This document shows positions 557-33,495 of a DNA stretch of 37,113 nt, one piece after another. How positions within the stretch are numbered: position 1 is the stretch's first letter; each line of letters opens with the position of its first letter. Below the pieces are notes generated by a model. The model made no database searches. It saw nothing but the letters and a program-made list of their open reading frames with translations, and was not told the origin of the DNA. The position numbers were made by a program, and so were the translations under genes. The DNA lies in NCBI GenBank assembly GCA_012729225.1, contig JAAYDO010000049.1, forward strand, positions 1-37,113, read 5' to 3'. Source of the DNA: Bacteroidales bacterium (GTDB lineage Bacteria > Bacteroidota > Bacteroidia > Bacteroidales > Bacteroidaceae).

Positions 557-684
557 CAAAAACGCACGCATGGTTCATGGGGCATCACACCATTGTTCAT
601 GGCCACTTGGAGCATTGTTTGTTTGCCATCGCACCATTGTTCGTTGAAACGTCAAGAATGCTTTGGTCATGTGATGTGTCAAAT
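557..684 (+). repeat. Family A intergenic array, locus 1 (22-bp phased)
   Basis: The core CATTGTTC or a close variant starts at 569 (CATGGTTC), 591, 613 (CATTGTTT) and 635, with a decayed copy at 657, each exactly 22 bp after the last. Flanks match locus 2 at 17922-18092: an AAAACGCA-like left edge and a right edge reading GAATRCTT, then TCATGTGA, then TGTCAAAT. The 22-bp step is not a multiple of three, so the array is not a coding repeat. It sits between the convergent ends of the transposase and recG. Confidence 0.85.
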
Positions 685-800: not shown

Positions 801-932
801 AACAGGTATATTCCGTGATCAGCAACCATATGGTATAAGAGTGGCAACTATATGGTATAAGAGTAGTAACTATATGGTATAAGAGTGGCAACTATATGGT
901 ATTTACTCACGAACCATATAGTCTGAGAAAAA
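801..932 (+). repeat. Family B intergenic array, locus 1 (22-bp phased, palindromic core)
   Basis: The core ATATGGT recurs at 828, 850, 872 and 894, with a variant (ATATAGT) at 916, always 22 bp apart. Units read as (C)YATATGGT followed by ATAAGAGTRGYAA; the fullest core ACCATATGGT is a perfect palindrome. The left flank at 801-820 (AACAGGTATATTCCGTGATC) is identical over 20 bases to the flank of locus 2 at 32025-32044 in reverse orientation. The right flank, TCACGAACCATAT then GTCTGAGAAAAA, is also shared. Confidence 0.9.
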
Positions 933-982: not shown

Positions 983-3160
983 TCAACTGATTGCTCCCCA
1001 GTTGATATTGGTCTTTCTCAGTTCTCTGAGTCTTCTCCAAAGGATGTCGTTTTCTGTGTTTCGTTCCTCTGGGTCTGAGTCAATGACTGACTGGGCAGTG
1101 TCTCGTGCCAAGGTGAGGATTTGTCCGTCTTTGGCAAGATTTGCAATCTTGAGGTCGAAAGCCATGCCAGACTGCTGTGTGCCTTCAAGATCGCCAGGAC
1201 CTCTTAGTTTGAGGTCTTGTTCGGCAATCTCAAATCCGTCGGTGGTATCTACCATGACTTGCACTCGTTTGCGGGTGGTTTCTCCTATTTCAAACTTTGT
1301 GACCAACACGCAGTAGCTTTGATCGGAGCCTCTACCCACACGTCCACGAAGCTGGTGCAGCTGGCTGAGTCCGAAGCGTTCGGCATTTTCTATAATCATG
1401 ACAGAGGCGTTGGGCACATTTACACCAACCTCTATCACGGTGGTGGAGACGAGGATGTGGGTTTCGTGGTTGGCAAATCGTTGCATCTCCGCATCCTTGT
1501 CCTTCGGTTTCATTTTACCATGAACCTTGCTCACCTTATAGTTGGGGAAGGCACGTGCAATTTCTTCATAGCCAGCCTCAAGGTCTTTGAGATCCAGTTT
1601 TTCTGTTTCTTTGATGAGTGGATAGACGATGTAGATTTGTCGGCCTATAGACAGTTCACGATTCATCAACTCATAGATGCGAGGGCGATGGGCATCGAAC
1701 ATGTGGATGGTGCGGATGGGTTTTCGTCCAGGTGGAAGTTCGTCGATGACACTGACATCGAGGTCGCCATACAGGGTCATGGCGAGTGTGCGTGGGATGG
1801 GGGTTGCTGTCATCACCAACACATGGGGTGGAACAGTGTTTTTCATCCAAAGTTTGGCACGCTGGGCCACACCGAACCGGTGTTGCTCATCAATGACTAC
1901 AAGCCCCAGTTTGTGGAAAAGCACATTGTCTTCTATCACAGCATGTGTTCCCACAAGAATGTCAATGTCTCCAGTGACAAGTCCTTCCAATATAGCGGTG
2001 CGTTTCTTCCCTTTCACTGTGCCAGTGAGCAATTCCACCCTTACAGGCAAATCGGCCAAAAAGCCACATAGTGTCTCTCGATGTTGTTCTGCCAAGATTT
2101 CTGTGGGAGCCATGATGCAAGCCTGACAACCGTTGTCGATGGCAATAAGTGCAATCATAAGTGCTACTAATGTCTTCCCGCTTCCCACATCTCCTTGCAA
2201 GAGCCTGTTCATCTGTCGTTGAGACCTCATGTCGGCTCGGATTTCTCGGATAACACGCTTTTGAGCCTCTGTCAGTTGGAATGGTAGGTGATGGTAGAAG
2301 AAACGATTGAAGTTCTCTCCAATGGTGTTAAAAACCATCCCCTTGTAGCGTAACTGGCGATCCTTCACATAACGAAGAATATTCAGTTGCACATAGAAGA
2401 GTTCTTCAAACTTCAGTCTTAGCTGTGCATGTCTGAGTGACTCTGGTGAAGAAGGGTAGTGAATGTTATGGATGGCATCGTTGTGTGACATCAGATGATG
2501 CTTCTGAACGATGTAGCCGGGTAGTGTCTCTGGTAGGGGAGTCTTGAGAATCTTAAACATGTTGGCCGTGAGTTTGGCCATGCCTGCCGATGTGAGCCCG
2601 CTACGTTTCATCTTCTCTGAGGTGTTATAGCTGGGGCATAGACCCTTGAACACCGATGGTTGTGCATCCAAAGACTCTTGAATATTGGTATTTGTCGGAT
2701 TCTCTTGAAACAAATTGCCTGTGGTGCATGCTTGCTGTTTGATTTCTTCGGGTGCATTCTCCATTTCAGGATGGGCTATTTGAATGCGTCCGTTGAACAC
2801 GTTTGGTTTGCCAAATACAATGTAAGATTTATGGCAGTCGTAGGTCTTTTTGATATATTTGATACCTTGAAACCATACGAGGTCGATAAATCCTGTACCA
2901 TCTGAAAAATGGGCAATGAGTCGCGCACCTCTTCCTTCACCTGTTGTTTCGAAAGAGAGTATTTGTCCGCATAACTGCACATAGGGCATGTTCCCGTTGA
3001 TGTTGCCGATTTTGTAGATACGGCTTCTGTCCACGTATTTATAAGGATAATACACCAGAAGATCGCCAACGGTGGTGATGTGGAGTTCGTTGGCGAGTAG
3101 GGTAGCGCGGTTGGGTCCTACTCCTTGCAGATATTTAATATCTTGACTGAGTATATTCAT
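983..3160 (-). CDS. recG: ATP-dependent DNA helicase RecG
   Basis: RecG remodels stalled replication forks and Holliday junctions, using ATP to drive branch migration. The 725-residue product has the N-terminal wedge region (GVGPNRATLLANELHITTVG near residue 13), Walker A GDVGSGKT at 323-330, the DEQH box at 424-427, TATPIPRT at 451-458 and the late helicase motif RGRVGRG at 605-611. It is somewhat longer than the usual 680-700 residues because of a low-similarity insertion at about 135-172, within or after the wedge domain. It is the last gene of a minus-strand cluster and starts 53 bases after dnaG, so it is probably co-transcribed with it. No hairpin terminator is visible downstream; the repeat arrays begin there. 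Confidence 0.98.
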   Translation of the reverse strand: MNILSQDIKYLQGVGPNRATLLANELHITTVGDLLVYYPYKYVDRSRIYKIGNINGNMPYVQLCGQILSFETTGEGRGARLIAHFSDGTGFIDLVWFQGIKYIKKTYDCHKSYIVFGKPNVFNGRIQIAHPEMENAPEEIKQQACTTGNLFQENPTNTNIQESLDAQPSVFKGLCPSYNTSEKMKRSGLTSAGMAKLTANMFKILKTPLPETLPGYIVQKHHLMSHNDAIHNIHYPSSPESLRHAQLRLKFEELFYVQLNILRYVKDRQLRYKGMVFNTIGENFNRFFYHHLPFQLTEAQKRVIREIRADMRSQRQMNRLLQGDVGSGKTLVALMIALIAIDNGCQACIMAPTEILAEQHRETLCGFLADLPVRVELLTGTVKGKKRTAILEGLVTGDIDILVGTHAVIEDNVLFHKLGLVVIDEQHRFGVAQRAKLWMKNTVPPHVLVMTATPIPRTLAMTLYGDLDVSVIDELPPGRKPIRTIHMFDAHRPRIYELMNRELSIGRQIYIVYPLIKETEKLDLKDLEAGYEEIARAFPNYKVSKVHGKMKPKDKDAEMQRFANHETHILVSTTVIEVGVNVPNASVMIIENAERFGLSQLHQLRGRVGRGSDQSYCVLVTKFEIGETTRKRVQVMVDTTDGFEIAEQDLKLRGPGDLEGTQQSGMAFDLKIANLAKDGQILTLARDTAQSVIDSDPEERNTENDILWRRLRELRKTNINWGAIS

Positions 3161-17921: not shown

Positions 17922-18092
17922 CGAAAACGCATGCTGGTTCGATCGTCATTGAAGCATTGTTCGTTGGTCGTTGAAGCATTGTTCGTTGGTCGTTGAAGCA
18001 TTGTTCGTTGGCACTTGAAACATTGTTCAATGACGATTGAAGCATTGTTCGTTGGAGCACGAAGAATACTTCAGTCATGTGACATGTCAAAT
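17922..18092 (+). repeat. Family A intergenic array, locus 2 (22-bp phased, most complete)
   Basis: CATTGTTC starts at 17955, 17977, 17999, 18021 and 18043, each exactly 22 bp apart, with decayed units in phase at 17933 (GCTGGTTC) and 18065 (AATACTTC). The 14 bases between cores vary around GTTGGTCGTTGAAG. The unit at 18021 reads CATTGTTCAATG, a near-perfect inverted repeat. It lies downstream of sprA and upstream of DUF4419. Both edges align with locus 1. Confidence 0.92.
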
Positions 18093-25700: not shown

Positions 25701-26116
25701 AATTCCTCAATCAGTATTGTGAGACTTATGCCTCTTTCTTGTTTATACACTAAGAAACGTAAAAAAAACCTTTTTATTGTATATAATATCTCTTTAATGT
25801 AAGTTTGACAAAATCAGCGTATAGCACACTCGCCGTAAAGATACCCTCCCTATGCTTTTCCGATCCTTCGATATGCCTTCGATAGACCTTCGATAGGAGT
25901 ATTGTATAATTCCATCACTTTTTTCTTTTGCAACATGAAGGGAGGTGAGACCGATATGAAGGTTGAGACAGAGAGGGATGTGGGCATTCCATGCCATCAA
26001 TGTCCATTTGGTGATTTTTGGAGAAATGTGATTTTTGTGAATTTATCACCATTCTGCTTTCTTCATGCTTCTTTTATGGTGCAGACTAAAGATGCTTGTG
26101 CCTTAAACTCGGTGAT
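25701..26116. other. Gene-free stretch between ruvA and sprA
   Basis: No convincing gene. It contains an AT-rich sprA leader with a weak -7 candidate (TACGTTTC on the minus strand near 25754-25761) and the third family C repeat. A 75-codon plus-strand frame here has no recognisable product. Confidence 0.5.
25866..25898 (+). repeat. Family C repeat, locus 3 (11-bp phased)
   Basis: CTTCGAT starts at 25866, 25877 and 25888, exactly 11 bp apart (units CTTCGATATGC, CTTCGATAGAC, CTTCGATAGGA). This is the most regular copy. It lies about 170 bases upstream of the sprA start. Confidence 0.82.
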
Positions 26117-30574: not shown

Positions 30575-31852
30575 ATGAAAAAGAATATTGAAACCATCTG
30601 CGTTCATGGTGGATGGAAACCTACAAAGGGTGAGCCCCAACAGCTTCCCATCTATCAGAGCACTACCTTTAAGTATGAAAACAGCGAGCAGATGGCTCGT
30701 CTTTTTGATTTGAAGGATTCGGGCTATTTCTACACCCGTCTGGCTAACCCTACCAACGATATGGTAGCTAAGAAGATTGCTGCTCTTGAAGGTGGTGTGG
30801 CAGCTGTGCTCACATCAAGTGGGCAGGCAGCCAACTTTTATGCCATATTCAACATCTGTGAGTCTGGCGACCACTTTATCACAAGCAACACTATTTATGG
30901 AGGAACCTTCAATCTCTTTGGAGTGACCATGAAGAAGTTGGGTATTGAATGTACTTTCATTGACCCTGAATGGGATGATGAACGGATAGAGAAAGAGTTC
31001 CGTCCCAACACCAAGTGCTTCTTTGGAGAGACCATCAGCAATCCTGGTGGTAATGTGTTTGATATAGAGCGTTTTGCCAAGATGGCTCACAAGCATGGCG
31101 TGCCTCTCATTGTTGATAATACGTTTGCTACCCCTGTCAATTGTCGTCCTTTCGAGTGGGGTTGTGATATAATTACTCATTCTACCACTAAGTATATGGA
31201 TGGTCATGCCACTCAGGTGGGTGGTTGTGTGGTGGATAGCGGTAACTTTGATTGGACTGCTCACGCAGAAAAGTTCCCTGGTTTGACTTCTCCGGATGAA
31301 AGTTATCATGGACTGACTTACACCAAGGCTTTTGGCAAGATGGCTTATAGCACCAAACTCATTAGCCAGCTCATGCGTGACCTTGGTTCTATCCCTGCTC
31401 CTCAAAACTCATTCCTTCTCAACTTGGGTCTTGAGACCCTTCACCTCCGCATGCGCCAGCATTGTGACAATGCACAGAAAGTTGCTGAGTGGTTGGAGAA
31501 TAATCCAAAGGTGGCTTGGGTTAATTACTGCGGTCTGCCATCCAACAAATATCATGCGCTTGCTCAGAAATATTTACCCAATGGCTCTTGTGGTGTGATT
31601 GCTTTTGGCTTGAAAGGTAGTCGTGAAGAGGCAATCAAGTTTATGGACAATCTTGACTTTATCTCTATCGTGACCCATGTGGCTGATGCTCGCACTTGTG
31701 TGCTCCACCCTGCGAGTCACACGCATCGTCAGCTCACAGACGAACAATTGCGTGAGGCAGGTGTTGCTCCAGATCTCGTGCGTCTTTCTGTAGGTATAGA
31801 GAATGCAGGCGACATCATTGCCGATCTCGAACAGGCGATGGCTAAGATGTAA
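30575..31852 (+). CDS. metY: O-acetylhomoserine sulfhydrylase (MetY)
   Basis: A PLP enzyme of the Cys/Met metabolism family that joins sulfide to O-acetylhomoserine to give homocysteine for methionine synthesis. The 425-residue length and the N-terminal segment ETICVHGGW favour MetY over the shorter (about 380-400) MetB/MetC lyases. The PLP lysine is K206 in HSTTKYMDGHA; D181 in LIVDNTFATP contacts the ring; YTRLANPTND is the family's phosphate and substrate loop. The C-terminal RLSVGIENAGDIIADLEQA is typical. Some close relatives use cysteine-forming or gamma-lyase chemistry, which sequence alone cannot exclude. Confidence 0.93.
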   Translation: MKKNIETICVHGGWKPTKGEPQQLPIYQSTTFKYENSEQMARLFDLKDSGYFYTRLANPTNDMVAKKIAALEGGVAAVLTSSGQAANFYAIFNICESGDHFITSNTIYGGTFNLFGVTMKKLGIECTFIDPEWDDERIEKEFRPNTKCFFGETISNPGGNVFDIERFAKMAHKHGVPLIVDNTFATPVNCRPFEWGCDIITHSTTKYMDGHATQVGGCVVDSGNFDWTAHAEKFPGLTSPDESYHGLTYTKAFGKMAYSTKLISQLMRDLGSIPAPQNSFLLNLGLETLHLRMRQHCDNAQKVAEWLENNPKVAWVNYCGLPSNKYHALAQKYLPNGSCGVIAFGLKGSREEAIKFMDNLDFISIVTHVADARTCVLHPASHTHRQLTDEQLREAGVAPDLVRLSVGIENAGDIIADLEQAMAKM

Positions 31853-31954
31853 TCGTTGATTACGCCAGTTCGGGATAAGTTCTCTTCTGAAAAATCATCC
31901 TGAACAGGTGTGCCTGTTGTGTTCATAACGAATCCTTACTCCATAAGCGCATCG

Positions 31955-32044
31955 TTTTTTTCTCAGACCATATGGTTCGTGAGAAAAAACCATATAGTTA
32001 CTGCTCTTCTACCATACGGTTGCCGATCACGGAATATACCTGTT
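31955..32044 (-). repeat. Family B intergenic array, locus 2 (22-bp phased)
   Basis: On the plus strand ACCATAT starts at 31967, 31989 and 32011 (the last as ACCATAC), each 22 bp apart. The reverse complement aligns with locus 1 at 801-932, including the identical 20-base flank at 32025-32044, but with fewer units, as if two were lost or gained. It lies between the convergent ends of metY and the TrpB2 gene. Confidence 0.9.
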
Positions 32045-32063
32045 TTGCAGAAGTATCAATATG

Positions 32064-32100
32064 ATGAGGGCTCTACCACTTCTTGTAGTAGAGCCCTCAT
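32064..32100. terminator. Strong hairpin between convergent metY and TrpB2 genes
   Basis: A perfect 13-bp stem (32064-32076 with 32088-32100, loop of 11) lies 22 bases after the TrpB2 stop. The T run is poor on both strands, but the placement between convergent genes suggests a shared transcription end. Confidence 0.65.
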
Positions 32101-32121
32101 TATGTATCAGTATTCCTGAAA

Positions 32122-33495
32122 TCAGATGATTTGTTCAAGTTCTGAAAGGTTCTTCGCTACATCCTCGTCCGTTACCTCAAAGTCCTGAAGTGAACCTGAG
32201 AGGAACTGGTCATAAGCCGCCATGTCAATGAGACCATGACCTGATAGGTTGAAGAGGATTACCTTCTCTTCGCCTGTCTCCTTGCACTTCAGTGCCTCAC
32301 GGATGGTTGCTGCGATAGCGTGACTGCTCTCTGGCGCGGGGATGATACCTTCTGCTTGAGCGAAGAGCATGCCTGCCTTGAAAGATTCCGACTGCTTAAT
32401 ATCAACAGCCTCCATGAGTTTGTCCTTGAGGAGTTGGCTGACAATCACACCTGCACCGTGATAGCGCAAGCCACCTGCGTGGATGTTGGCTGGCATGAAG
32501 TTGTGACCGAGCGTGTACATAGGGAGGAGTGGGGTGTAACCTGCCACATCTCCAAAGTCATATTGGAACACACCGCGAGTCAGTTTTGGACAGCTCGCAG
32601 GTTCAGCAGCAATGAAACGAGTCTTTTTGCCCTCTAAAATGTTGTGACGCATGAAAGGGAAAGAGATGCCACCGAAGTTACTGCCACCACCAAAGCAACC
32701 AATCACTACATCTGGATATTCACCAGCCTTTTCCATCTGCTTCTCTGCCTCAAGGCCGATGATAGACTGGTGGAGAGTCACGTGGCTCAACACGCTACCG
32801 AGTGTGTACTTGCAATTGGGAGTGCTCACAGCCAACTCAATCGCTTCACTGATGGCTGTGCCGAGAGACCCTTGGTTGTTAGGATCTTTGGTCAGAATGT
32901 CCTTGCCCGCACGAGTGGACATAGAGGGCGAAGGAGTGACCTGCGCACCATAAGTCTGCATGATGCTGCGGCGGTAAGGCTTTTGGTTATAAGAGATTTT
33001 CACCTGATATACAGCAGCGTCTAAGCCAAAAACCTTTGCCGCATAGCTCAAGGCTGCTCCCCACTGACCAGCACCAGTCTCTGTGGTTATGTTGGTCACG
33101 CCCTGCTTCTTGCAGTAGTATGCTTGTGCGAGGGCTGAGTTCAGTTTGTGGCTACCTACAGGTGACACACTTTCATTCTTGAAATAGATATGAGCAGGAG
33201 TATCAAGTGCCTCCTCCAGTCCGTAGGCTCTCACGAGTGGGGTAGAACGGTAGTATTTATACATGTCGCGCACCTCTTCTGGGATGTCAATCCAAGCATG
33301 CTCCTGATCCAGTTCTTGACGGCTCAATTCTTCAGCAAAGATAGGGAAGAGATCCTCAGGCTTGAGGGGCTCTTTGGTTTTGGGATTAATAGGAGGCAAT
33401 GGCTTGTTTACCATGTCAGCCTGAATATTGTACCACTGTGTGGGTATTTCCTCCTCGGTGAGGAAGAAGCGTTTTTGTTTTGTACTCATTGGCAT
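32122..33495 (-). CDS. TrpB2-type tryptophan synthase beta (PLP enzyme)
   Basis: A 457-residue fold-type II PLP enzyme of the TrpB-like class (TIGR01415, often called TrpB2), longer than the 390-400 residues of the TrpB that pairs with TrpA. The PLP lysine is K117 in SPVGSHKLNSALAQ; TETGAGQWGAAL at 138-149 and CFGGGSNFGGISFPF further on hold the cofactor phosphate loops. The class makes tryptophan from indole and serine without needing TrpA, and is often a salvage enzyme; no trp genes are nearby. Two start codons are possible (33495 or two codons later at 33489). Confidence 0.93.
   Translation of the reverse strand: MPMSTKQKRFFLTEEEIPTQWYNIQADMVNKPLPPINPKTKEPLKPEDLFPIFAEELSRQELDQEHAWIDIPEEVRDMYKYYRSTPLVRAYGLEEALDTPAHIYFKNESVSPVGSHKLNSALAQAYYCKKQGVTNITTETGAGQWGAALSYAAKVFGLDAAVYQVKISYNQKPYRRSIMQTYGAQVTPSPSMSTRAGKDILTKDPNNQGSLGTAISEAIELAVSTPNCKYTLGSVLSHVTLHQSIIGLEAEKQMEKAGEYPDVVIGCFGGGSNFGGISFPFMRHNILEGKKTRFIAAEPASCPKLTRGVFQYDFGDVAGYTPLLPMYTLGHNFMPANIHAGGLRYHGAGVIVSQLLKDKLMEAVDIKQSESFKAGMLFAQAEGIIPAPESSHAIAATIREALKCKETGEEKVILFNLSGHGLIDMAAYDQFLSGSLQDFEVTDEDVAKNLSELEQII

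Follow-up and report, generated by a model that had tools for sequence, protein, structure and literature searches.

A dispersed family of short repeats with palindromic cores every 22 bp, mainly beside gene 3' ends, in a Bacteroidales genome

Two arrays in the window

The window, the whole stretch of DNA that was analysed (37,113 nucleotides of contig JAAYDO010000049.1), contained two arrays of one repeat family, here called family B. Copy 1 lay beside the 3' end of a gene for a RecG-type helicase, and copy 2 between two convergent genes for PLP-dependent enzymes. Arrays of two further families, A and C, were also present. The features, in window coordinates, were as follows:

569–656, + strand: family A array of four 22-bp units (569, 591, 613, 635), upstream of family B in the same gene gap
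750–800, + strand: left flank of family B copy 1 (GAATGCGAATCTGACGAACTTGGGTTGATTGCTG...), common to copies of the IS982-type class
801–824, + strand: leader of copy 1, AACAGGTATATTCCGTGATCAGCA, its first 20 bases shared with copy 2
825–922, + strand: family B array copy 1, five 10-bp cores and four 12-bp spacers
923–945, + strand: tail of copy 1 (CTGAGAAAAAG...)
983–3160, − strand: gene for a RecG-type ATP-dependent DNA helicase of 725 aa, with the 3' end toward the copy 1 array
17937–18055, + strand: another family A array of 22-bp units, the second in the window
25865–25896, + strand: family C array, about three 11-bp units (CCTTCGATAGA)
30575–31852, + strand: gene for a Cys/Met-metabolism PLP enzyme of 425 aa, whose stop codon lies 8 bases away from the copy 2 inverted repeat
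31861–31879, − strand: IS982-type terminal inverted repeat (TACGCCAGTTCGGGATAAG on the + strand), right end of copy 2
31880–31966, − strand: tail of copy 2, also found in other copies of the IS982-type class
31967–32020, − strand: family B array copy 2, three cores and two spacers (a-b)
32021–32046, − strand: leader of copy 2
32122–33495, − strand: PLP-dependent enzyme gene (PALP), 457 aa, convergent with the gene at 30575–31852

The original prediction described five in-phase units at the first site and three in reverse orientation at the second, and both arrays were recovered. The copy 1 cores began at 825, 847, 869, 891 and 913 on the + strand, so that the predicted starts from 828 onwards fell 3 bases inside the cores; those of copy 2 began at 31967, 31989 and 32011 in the opposite orientation, and all steps in both arrays were 22 bp. 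The identical 20-base outer flank also held: AACAGGTATATTCCGTGATC at 801–820 was the reverse complement of 32025–32044, with base 21 differing (A/G), and the copies differed in unit number (5 versus 3). The proposed perfect palindromy of the core applied to two of the eight window cores, and to 33 of 94 cores over 26 copies, and failed for the remainder. Copy 1 had one perfect ACCATATGGT, three ACTATATGGT and one ACCATATAGT, and copy 2, read on the + strand, had ACCATATGGT, ACCATATAGT and ACCATACGGT. The spacers of copy 1 followed the order a-b-b-b when read from the gene side. A search for paired cores (≤2 mismatches) gave six matches in the window versus none in each of 100 dinucleotide shuffles, and Tandem Repeats Finder assigned a score of 141 to 822–902.

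Copies, unit order and flanks in the genome

A BLAST search of the window's own genome (G000; 213 contigs, 88.8% complete) yielded 49 pieces, from which 26 places were taken as copies of family B; a further locus, L031, was the 27th (L-numbers denote loci, and other G-numbers other genomes). Weaker pieces and lone cores were left out of this count. The 27 arrays were dispersed over many contigs, with three to five units each and with common flanks, in line with the predicted element that is copied in one block and gains or loses whole units. Units were counted in 26 copies, leaving out L009, which was cut by a contig end and matched L004 at 99% over 127 bases; 14, 8 and 4 copies had three, four and five units, respectively. 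Together they contained 94 cores and 68 spacers. Unit length was kept in the other copies, as predicted, with 66 of 68 steps measuring 22 bp and two (in L027 and L031) 23 bp. Genome-wide, the paired pattern matched 47 adjacent pairs, versus none for a reversed-pattern control.

The arrays followed a simple grammar of palindromic core, spacer a, core, spacer b and core, in which either spacer may repeat. In all 26 copies, the spacer that comes first when the element is read from its right-hand side was nearer type a (TCGTGAGTAAAT), and in 23 the final one was nearer type b (TGCCACTCTTCT). The spacer strings, in the gene-side reading, were ab (12 copies), aab (4), abb (4), abbb (2), aa (2), aaaa (1) and aaab (1); the plain core-a-core-b-core form accounted for 12 of 26 copies, forms with a or b repeated and both kept for 11, and forms with a only for three. 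Such ordered strings indicate that the internal order was preserved when blocks were copied and that single units were added later. Information content was 1.0–1.9 bits at core positions and 0.1–1.6 bits in the pooled 12-bp spacers, and both half-sites (T3 and A8) were changed in only two of the 94 cores. For family B itself, we infer whole-unit change from differences between loci, from other elements and from other species.

Two loci, L016 and L019, shared a 271-bp block with 97.8% identity up to the contig ends. The contig ends C13 and C129 carried the right half of family B only; they were identical over 127 bases and diverged directly after the inverted repeat, and this identity, also found in part in L004, may be an assembly overlap. 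In L027 and L029, another repeat adjoined family B, with GTCTTCACTGATGAC at a spacing of about 22–23 bp.

The flanks of an IS982-derived deletion element were common to 13 of the 27 copies (L001–L006, L008–L012, L015 and L024), and the other 14 had no IS982-type flanks (L007, L013, L014, L016–L022, L025, L027, L029 and L031). In L003–L006, the left flank extended into the last 45–50 codons of an IS982-type transposase and to an end like CCAGTTCGGGATAAG. The IS982-type ends resembled CCAGTTCGGGATAAG/CTTATCCCGAACTGG. A left end was seen in L003–L006 (eroded in two), both ends in L003 alone (right end eroded, as judged by eye), and the matching right end in L002, L008, L012, L015 and L024, as well as at the partial places L057 and L058. 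A recognisable IS982-type end was present in only nine of the 13 flank-sharing copies, and some of these ends were eroded. With both ends present at L003 alone, and one of them eroded, no target-site duplication was discerned. Judged as a miniature inverted-repeat transposable element (MITE), the IS982-type class alone had terminal inverted repeats matching those of an autonomous element. No functional transposase lay inside the copies; a C-terminal remnant occurred in four, with stop codons in two. Transposase fragments, and no intact IS982, were found in this assembly. An autonomous IS982 relative was present in the congener G041, and the full-length congener protein was identified as an IS982 transposase by NCBIfam (NF033520). 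An IS982 transposase acting in trans probably mobilised these 13 copies. In three copies (L001, L010 and L024), family A was joined to family B at the same junction; the composite in the window (569–656 beside family B) recurs at the latter two.

Related repeats and other phased families

The paired pattern of family B was absent from all 44 congeners. In a family-level set of 301 genomes (G000, 20 of the same congeners and 280 of other genera), the sole match besides G000, in G161, was one pair only and was attributed to chance. A scan of the species-genome collection returned three stretches, two of which were arrays of a related unit, AACTATATGGTTTACGRTGTCT. The third, in Ectobacillus (L088), belonged as a single pair to a longer palindrome and was dismissed as chance or a terminator. 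The related 22-bp family was dispersed in Prevotella sp. and uncultured Prevotellaceae assemblies, where its unit (≤3 mismatches) occurred 12 times at four places and 11 times on nine contigs, with repeats 22 bp apart in the 11 loci read. Three related-family copies with one right flank in another species had 7, 5 and 5 units.

The site of copy 2 was compared through 22 congener orthologues of the preceding gene. Downstream of it, five carried a 21-bp array and one (G014) a 23-bp array, and the remaining 16 had no array of period 21–24 within 400 bases. The five 21-bp arrays (L093, L100, L104, L106 and L108; 4, 6, 4, 3 and 3 units) were unrelated to family B. The element holding this array measured 417, 417, 438, 438 and 480 bp with 3, 3, 4, 4 and 6 units, and was 99.3–100% identical between the five species, in which the neighbouring gene was 83–92% identical. 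The elements differed by whole units plus a few substitutions and are the clearest case of whole-unit change, though outside family B. They lay directly behind the gene's apparent terminator, a hairpin with CTTGTTTTT at its end. In three of the species, the DNA beyond the element was also about 99% identical, so that a larger piece was exchanged there. Before its array, the element contained TTG...TACTTTTG, which we take to resemble a Bacteroidales promoter. In G014, the two facing genes around the copy 2 site stood side by side without family B. The 23-bp phased array there (L117) was located 33–84 bases past the stop codon, in the same convergent gap, and contained GTACCCCTCG/CGAGGGGTAC palindromes; units similar to it were seen in G041 and G030.

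Other phased families also occurred in the genome of the window. In 433 kb, family A (22 bp, CATTGTTC anchor) formed 20 chains of at least three anchors, and family C (11 bp, CCTTCGAGATG) formed 16 chains of at least two units. Family A occupied at least 40 places genome-wide, and all 40 scored places, out of 155 candidates, matched. Its leader (...AAACGCACG) and tail (AATGCTTC.GTCATGTGATGTGTCAAAT...) differed from the leader CCTCCCCATGCTTCTGCGAG and tail AGTCTCAGATAATTCCACCACC of family C, which recurred in many copies elsewhere; among the copies listed, the majority in both families had their own leader and tail. At least three unrelated leader-array-tail families, with 22-, 22- and 11-bp units, were present in enlarged convergent gaps. 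Among 51 arrays of period 6–60 in sampled intergenic DNA, 17 had period 11 and 23 had period 22, and a shuffled control gave about one array per set. Congener arrays favoured units of 21–24 bp.

Gene context and interpretation

Genes were called with a simple hexamer model. Both neighbours were called for 17 family B copies, of which 10 lay in convergent, six in tandem and one in divergent gaps; the other 10 of the 27 copies end at a contig edge. The convergent excess over the background (32 convergent of 183 gaps; Fisher p 0.0004) is partly circular, because the elements lengthen the gaps that hold them. Of 23 right ends of the element, 20 faced the 3' end of a gene, compared with 14 of 21 left ends. 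This orientation bias was not significant (Fisher p 0.16; tandem gaps 5 of 6, p 0.22) and is suggestive only. Across all families, 29 intergenic arrays of period 21–23, 44 or 66 in 433 kb of this genome comprised 16 convergent and 13 tandem cases, and none of these period classes was found in the 35 divergent gaps of the same DNA. The 25 arrays of period 10, 11 or 33 were distributed over 16 tandem, six convergent and three divergent gaps. In the congeners G035 and G043, the majority of 21–24-bp arrays lay in divergent or tandem gaps, and a strict convergent rule therefore does not fit. Convergent gaps of at least 60 bp had a median length of 508 bp here (32 gaps), compared with 94–117 bp in five congeners (10, 6, 12, 2 and 9 gaps). 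Correlation peaks in the convergent gaps appeared at lags 22, 44 and 66 (robust z 6.3, 3.7 and 3.4), and a 22-bp peak was not among the top lags in divergent gaps.

We consider family B to be probably a small non-autonomous interspersed repeat of the BOX/BrickBuilt type that spread in blocks, changes by whole units and is tolerated at gene 3' ends. Its build is a leader, dyad-symmetric 10-bp cores every 22 bp and a tail, the basic core-a-core-b-core string being an imperfect palindrome. Copies would have spread as blocks, those with IS982-type flanks in trans by the IS982 transposase, and unit number would shift in whole units as a result of slippage or of unequal recombination between similar cores. 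Copies lie mainly beside 3' ends, and most of all in convergent gaps; the simplest explanation is that such sites tolerate insertion. A non-autonomous parasite like BOX or BrickBuilt with whole-unit slippage is the least demanding account, beside which a role as RNA or as a phased protein array is possible. The original prediction as a whole was partly supported.

The boxB unit of BOX, at about 45 bp, is longer than the unit of family B. In Streptococcus pneumoniae, the accessible text on BOX describes boxA, a variable number of boxB and boxC, foldable, over-represented between convergent genes and interpreted as a non-autonomous parasite (PMC3049150). Compared by architecture, family B resembled it in build, unit-number variation and convergent excess; BOX belongs to another phylum, and that text gave no counterpart of the two-turn palindromic units (PMC3049150). 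Among the literature matches listed, no Prevotella repeat was closer than BrickBuilt, described in the part of the source consulted as a MITE of Porphyromonas gingivalis with 23-nt units in 1 to 22.8 copies at 19 places (PMC4596501). Like the BrickBuilt described there, family B is an intergenic Bacteroidales repeat of leader, tandem units and tail with variable unit number; whole-unit expansion and contraction, insertion-sequence-like ends, and partial leaders and tails are further likenesses (PMC4596501). It differed in having a 22-bp unit built on a palindromic core, with spacers of two types, and in its IS982-type ends (CCAGTTCGGGATAAG) instead of ends such as GAGACCTTTGCA/TGCAAAGGTCTC in the BrickBuilt text; many copies lacked any insertion-sequence end. 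We class family B as a new repeat of this kind, distinct from both BrickBuilt and BOX. It would be a second transposon-borne minisatellite in the Bacteroidales, beside BrickBuilt, and would serve as a copy-number-variable typing marker for a putatively Prevotella-like lineage.

Other known systems agreed less well. REP/BIME elements, in the sections available, are short palindromes downstream of genes, as in family B, mostly between convergent or unidirectional genes (PMC3733652); they are described as single or in inverted pairs, whereas family B is in tandem phase. The RAYT-type transposase domain PF01797 (Y1) was not found in G000, which is 88.8% complete, and six of 14 controls were positive. 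Plasmid iterons are likewise direct repeats about 22 bp apart, but family B was dispersed on many contigs between ordinary genes and had no match among 72,556 plasmid records. Viral contigs gave no exact pattern matches, and a CRISPR array, with constant repeats and unique spacers, did not agree with 12-bp spacers of two recurring types.

A different reading, which we regard as unlikely, is that of a 3'-end RNA element: the array would be transcribed from the neighbouring gene, its long hairpin would stabilise or process the mRNA, and unit number would tune the effect. By prediction, the family B core and the core-a-core-b-core string can form a hairpin. Folding of 26 copies against shuffles gave a mean z of −3.1 for the gene-sense strand and −2.6 for the other, compared with −0.95 for 60 control stretches; family A (20 copies) gave −2.3 and −2.1, family C (10 copies) −0.2 and 0.15, and 22 congener arrays of 21–24 bp −3.95. 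A hairpin that we specified had 83% of cells paired, versus 23–43% when slid. Gene-sense folds contained the outer core-core stem and GUGAGU/ACUC in several of 15 folded copies, and G-U cells outnumbered A-C cells on that strand (67 versus 26), a hint of RNA that is weak because the copies are related. G-T pairing is taken as a sign of transcription in the parts of the REP/BIME work available (PMC3733652). The way the right end faces genes would also suit such an element, although the bias was not significant, and a simple scan showed nothing like a terminator hairpin from the stop codon to the array in 10 of 16 copies; it found terminators, however, at only 17 of 64 convergent 3' ends. Covariation (25 rows, L009 and L031 left out) argues against the RNA element, since it was not above chance: among 500 column shuffles, 62 reached the score and 148 the percentage paired. 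RNAalifold yielded the core-core stem only, with no pair changed on both sides, and the aa and aaaa copies (L021, L024 and L027) lacked a complementary spacer. Rfam gave no matches in the window at the gathering score, and none for L001, L012 and five congener loci at an E-value cut-off of 0.1.

A wider reading, which we also regard as unlikely, is that in these bacteria the space behind genes, above all convergent ones, may be a niche repeatedly colonised by unrelated leader-array-tail repeats; a common host factor or DNA mechanism that reads or produces helically phased dyads there, such as a topological sink where transcripts converge, would explain this. The only property common to these repeats would be a unit of one or two helical turns. 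Its basis is that families A, B and C occur in convergent gaps four to five times longer than those of five congeners, and that congeners have other 21–24-bp units, even at the same site. Why short intergenic minisatellites retain one- or two-turn periods is a testable question: if helical phase is selected, a DNA-bound factor should exist, and if it is not, the mutational mechanism itself should be helically periodic.

The original prediction saw in the palindrome a protein site on one face of the helix. That the cores are phased DNA-binding sites, with a putative dimeric host protein on each core at intervals of two helical turns, perhaps serving as a topological or nucleoid anchor in the space between convergent genes, appears doubtful. 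The conserved cores beside freer spacers, the near-constant spacing and the rarity of cores altered in both half-sites would suit it, as would unrelated families with periods of 22 and 11 bp here and 21–24 bp in congeners, near multiples of 11 bp. An 11-bp period is ascribed to negatively supercoiled DNA in the available text of one study (PMC4132750). However, the same core symmetry also yields a hairpin, and a pitch of about 11 bp per turn is needed for 22 bp to equal two turns. Species-specific cores (none of 44 congeners) would require a fast-changing partner, unit copying also preserves spacing, and tolerance of insertion alone can account for the location. A local minisatellite duplicated once over 31 kb, to which the 20 bases of flank common to both window copies might point, has practically no chance of being correct, as it is refuted by the genome-wide BLAST copies (27 places on many contigs, so that the flank was not confined to two sites) and the outer flanks of the window copies are not alike.

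Promoters of the Bacteroidales are of a type other than sigma-70, and no sigma-70-type promoters were found in either window gap. The terminator scan gave one weak match near copy 1, at 705–724, and none in the gap of copy 2. A long hairpin (GAGGGCTCTACCACTTCTTGTAGTAGAGCCCTC, seen by eye and not reported by the scan) was located at 32064–32104, between copy 2 and the PALP gene. This hairpin is probably a two-way terminator, and copy 2 separates the 425-aa gene from it.
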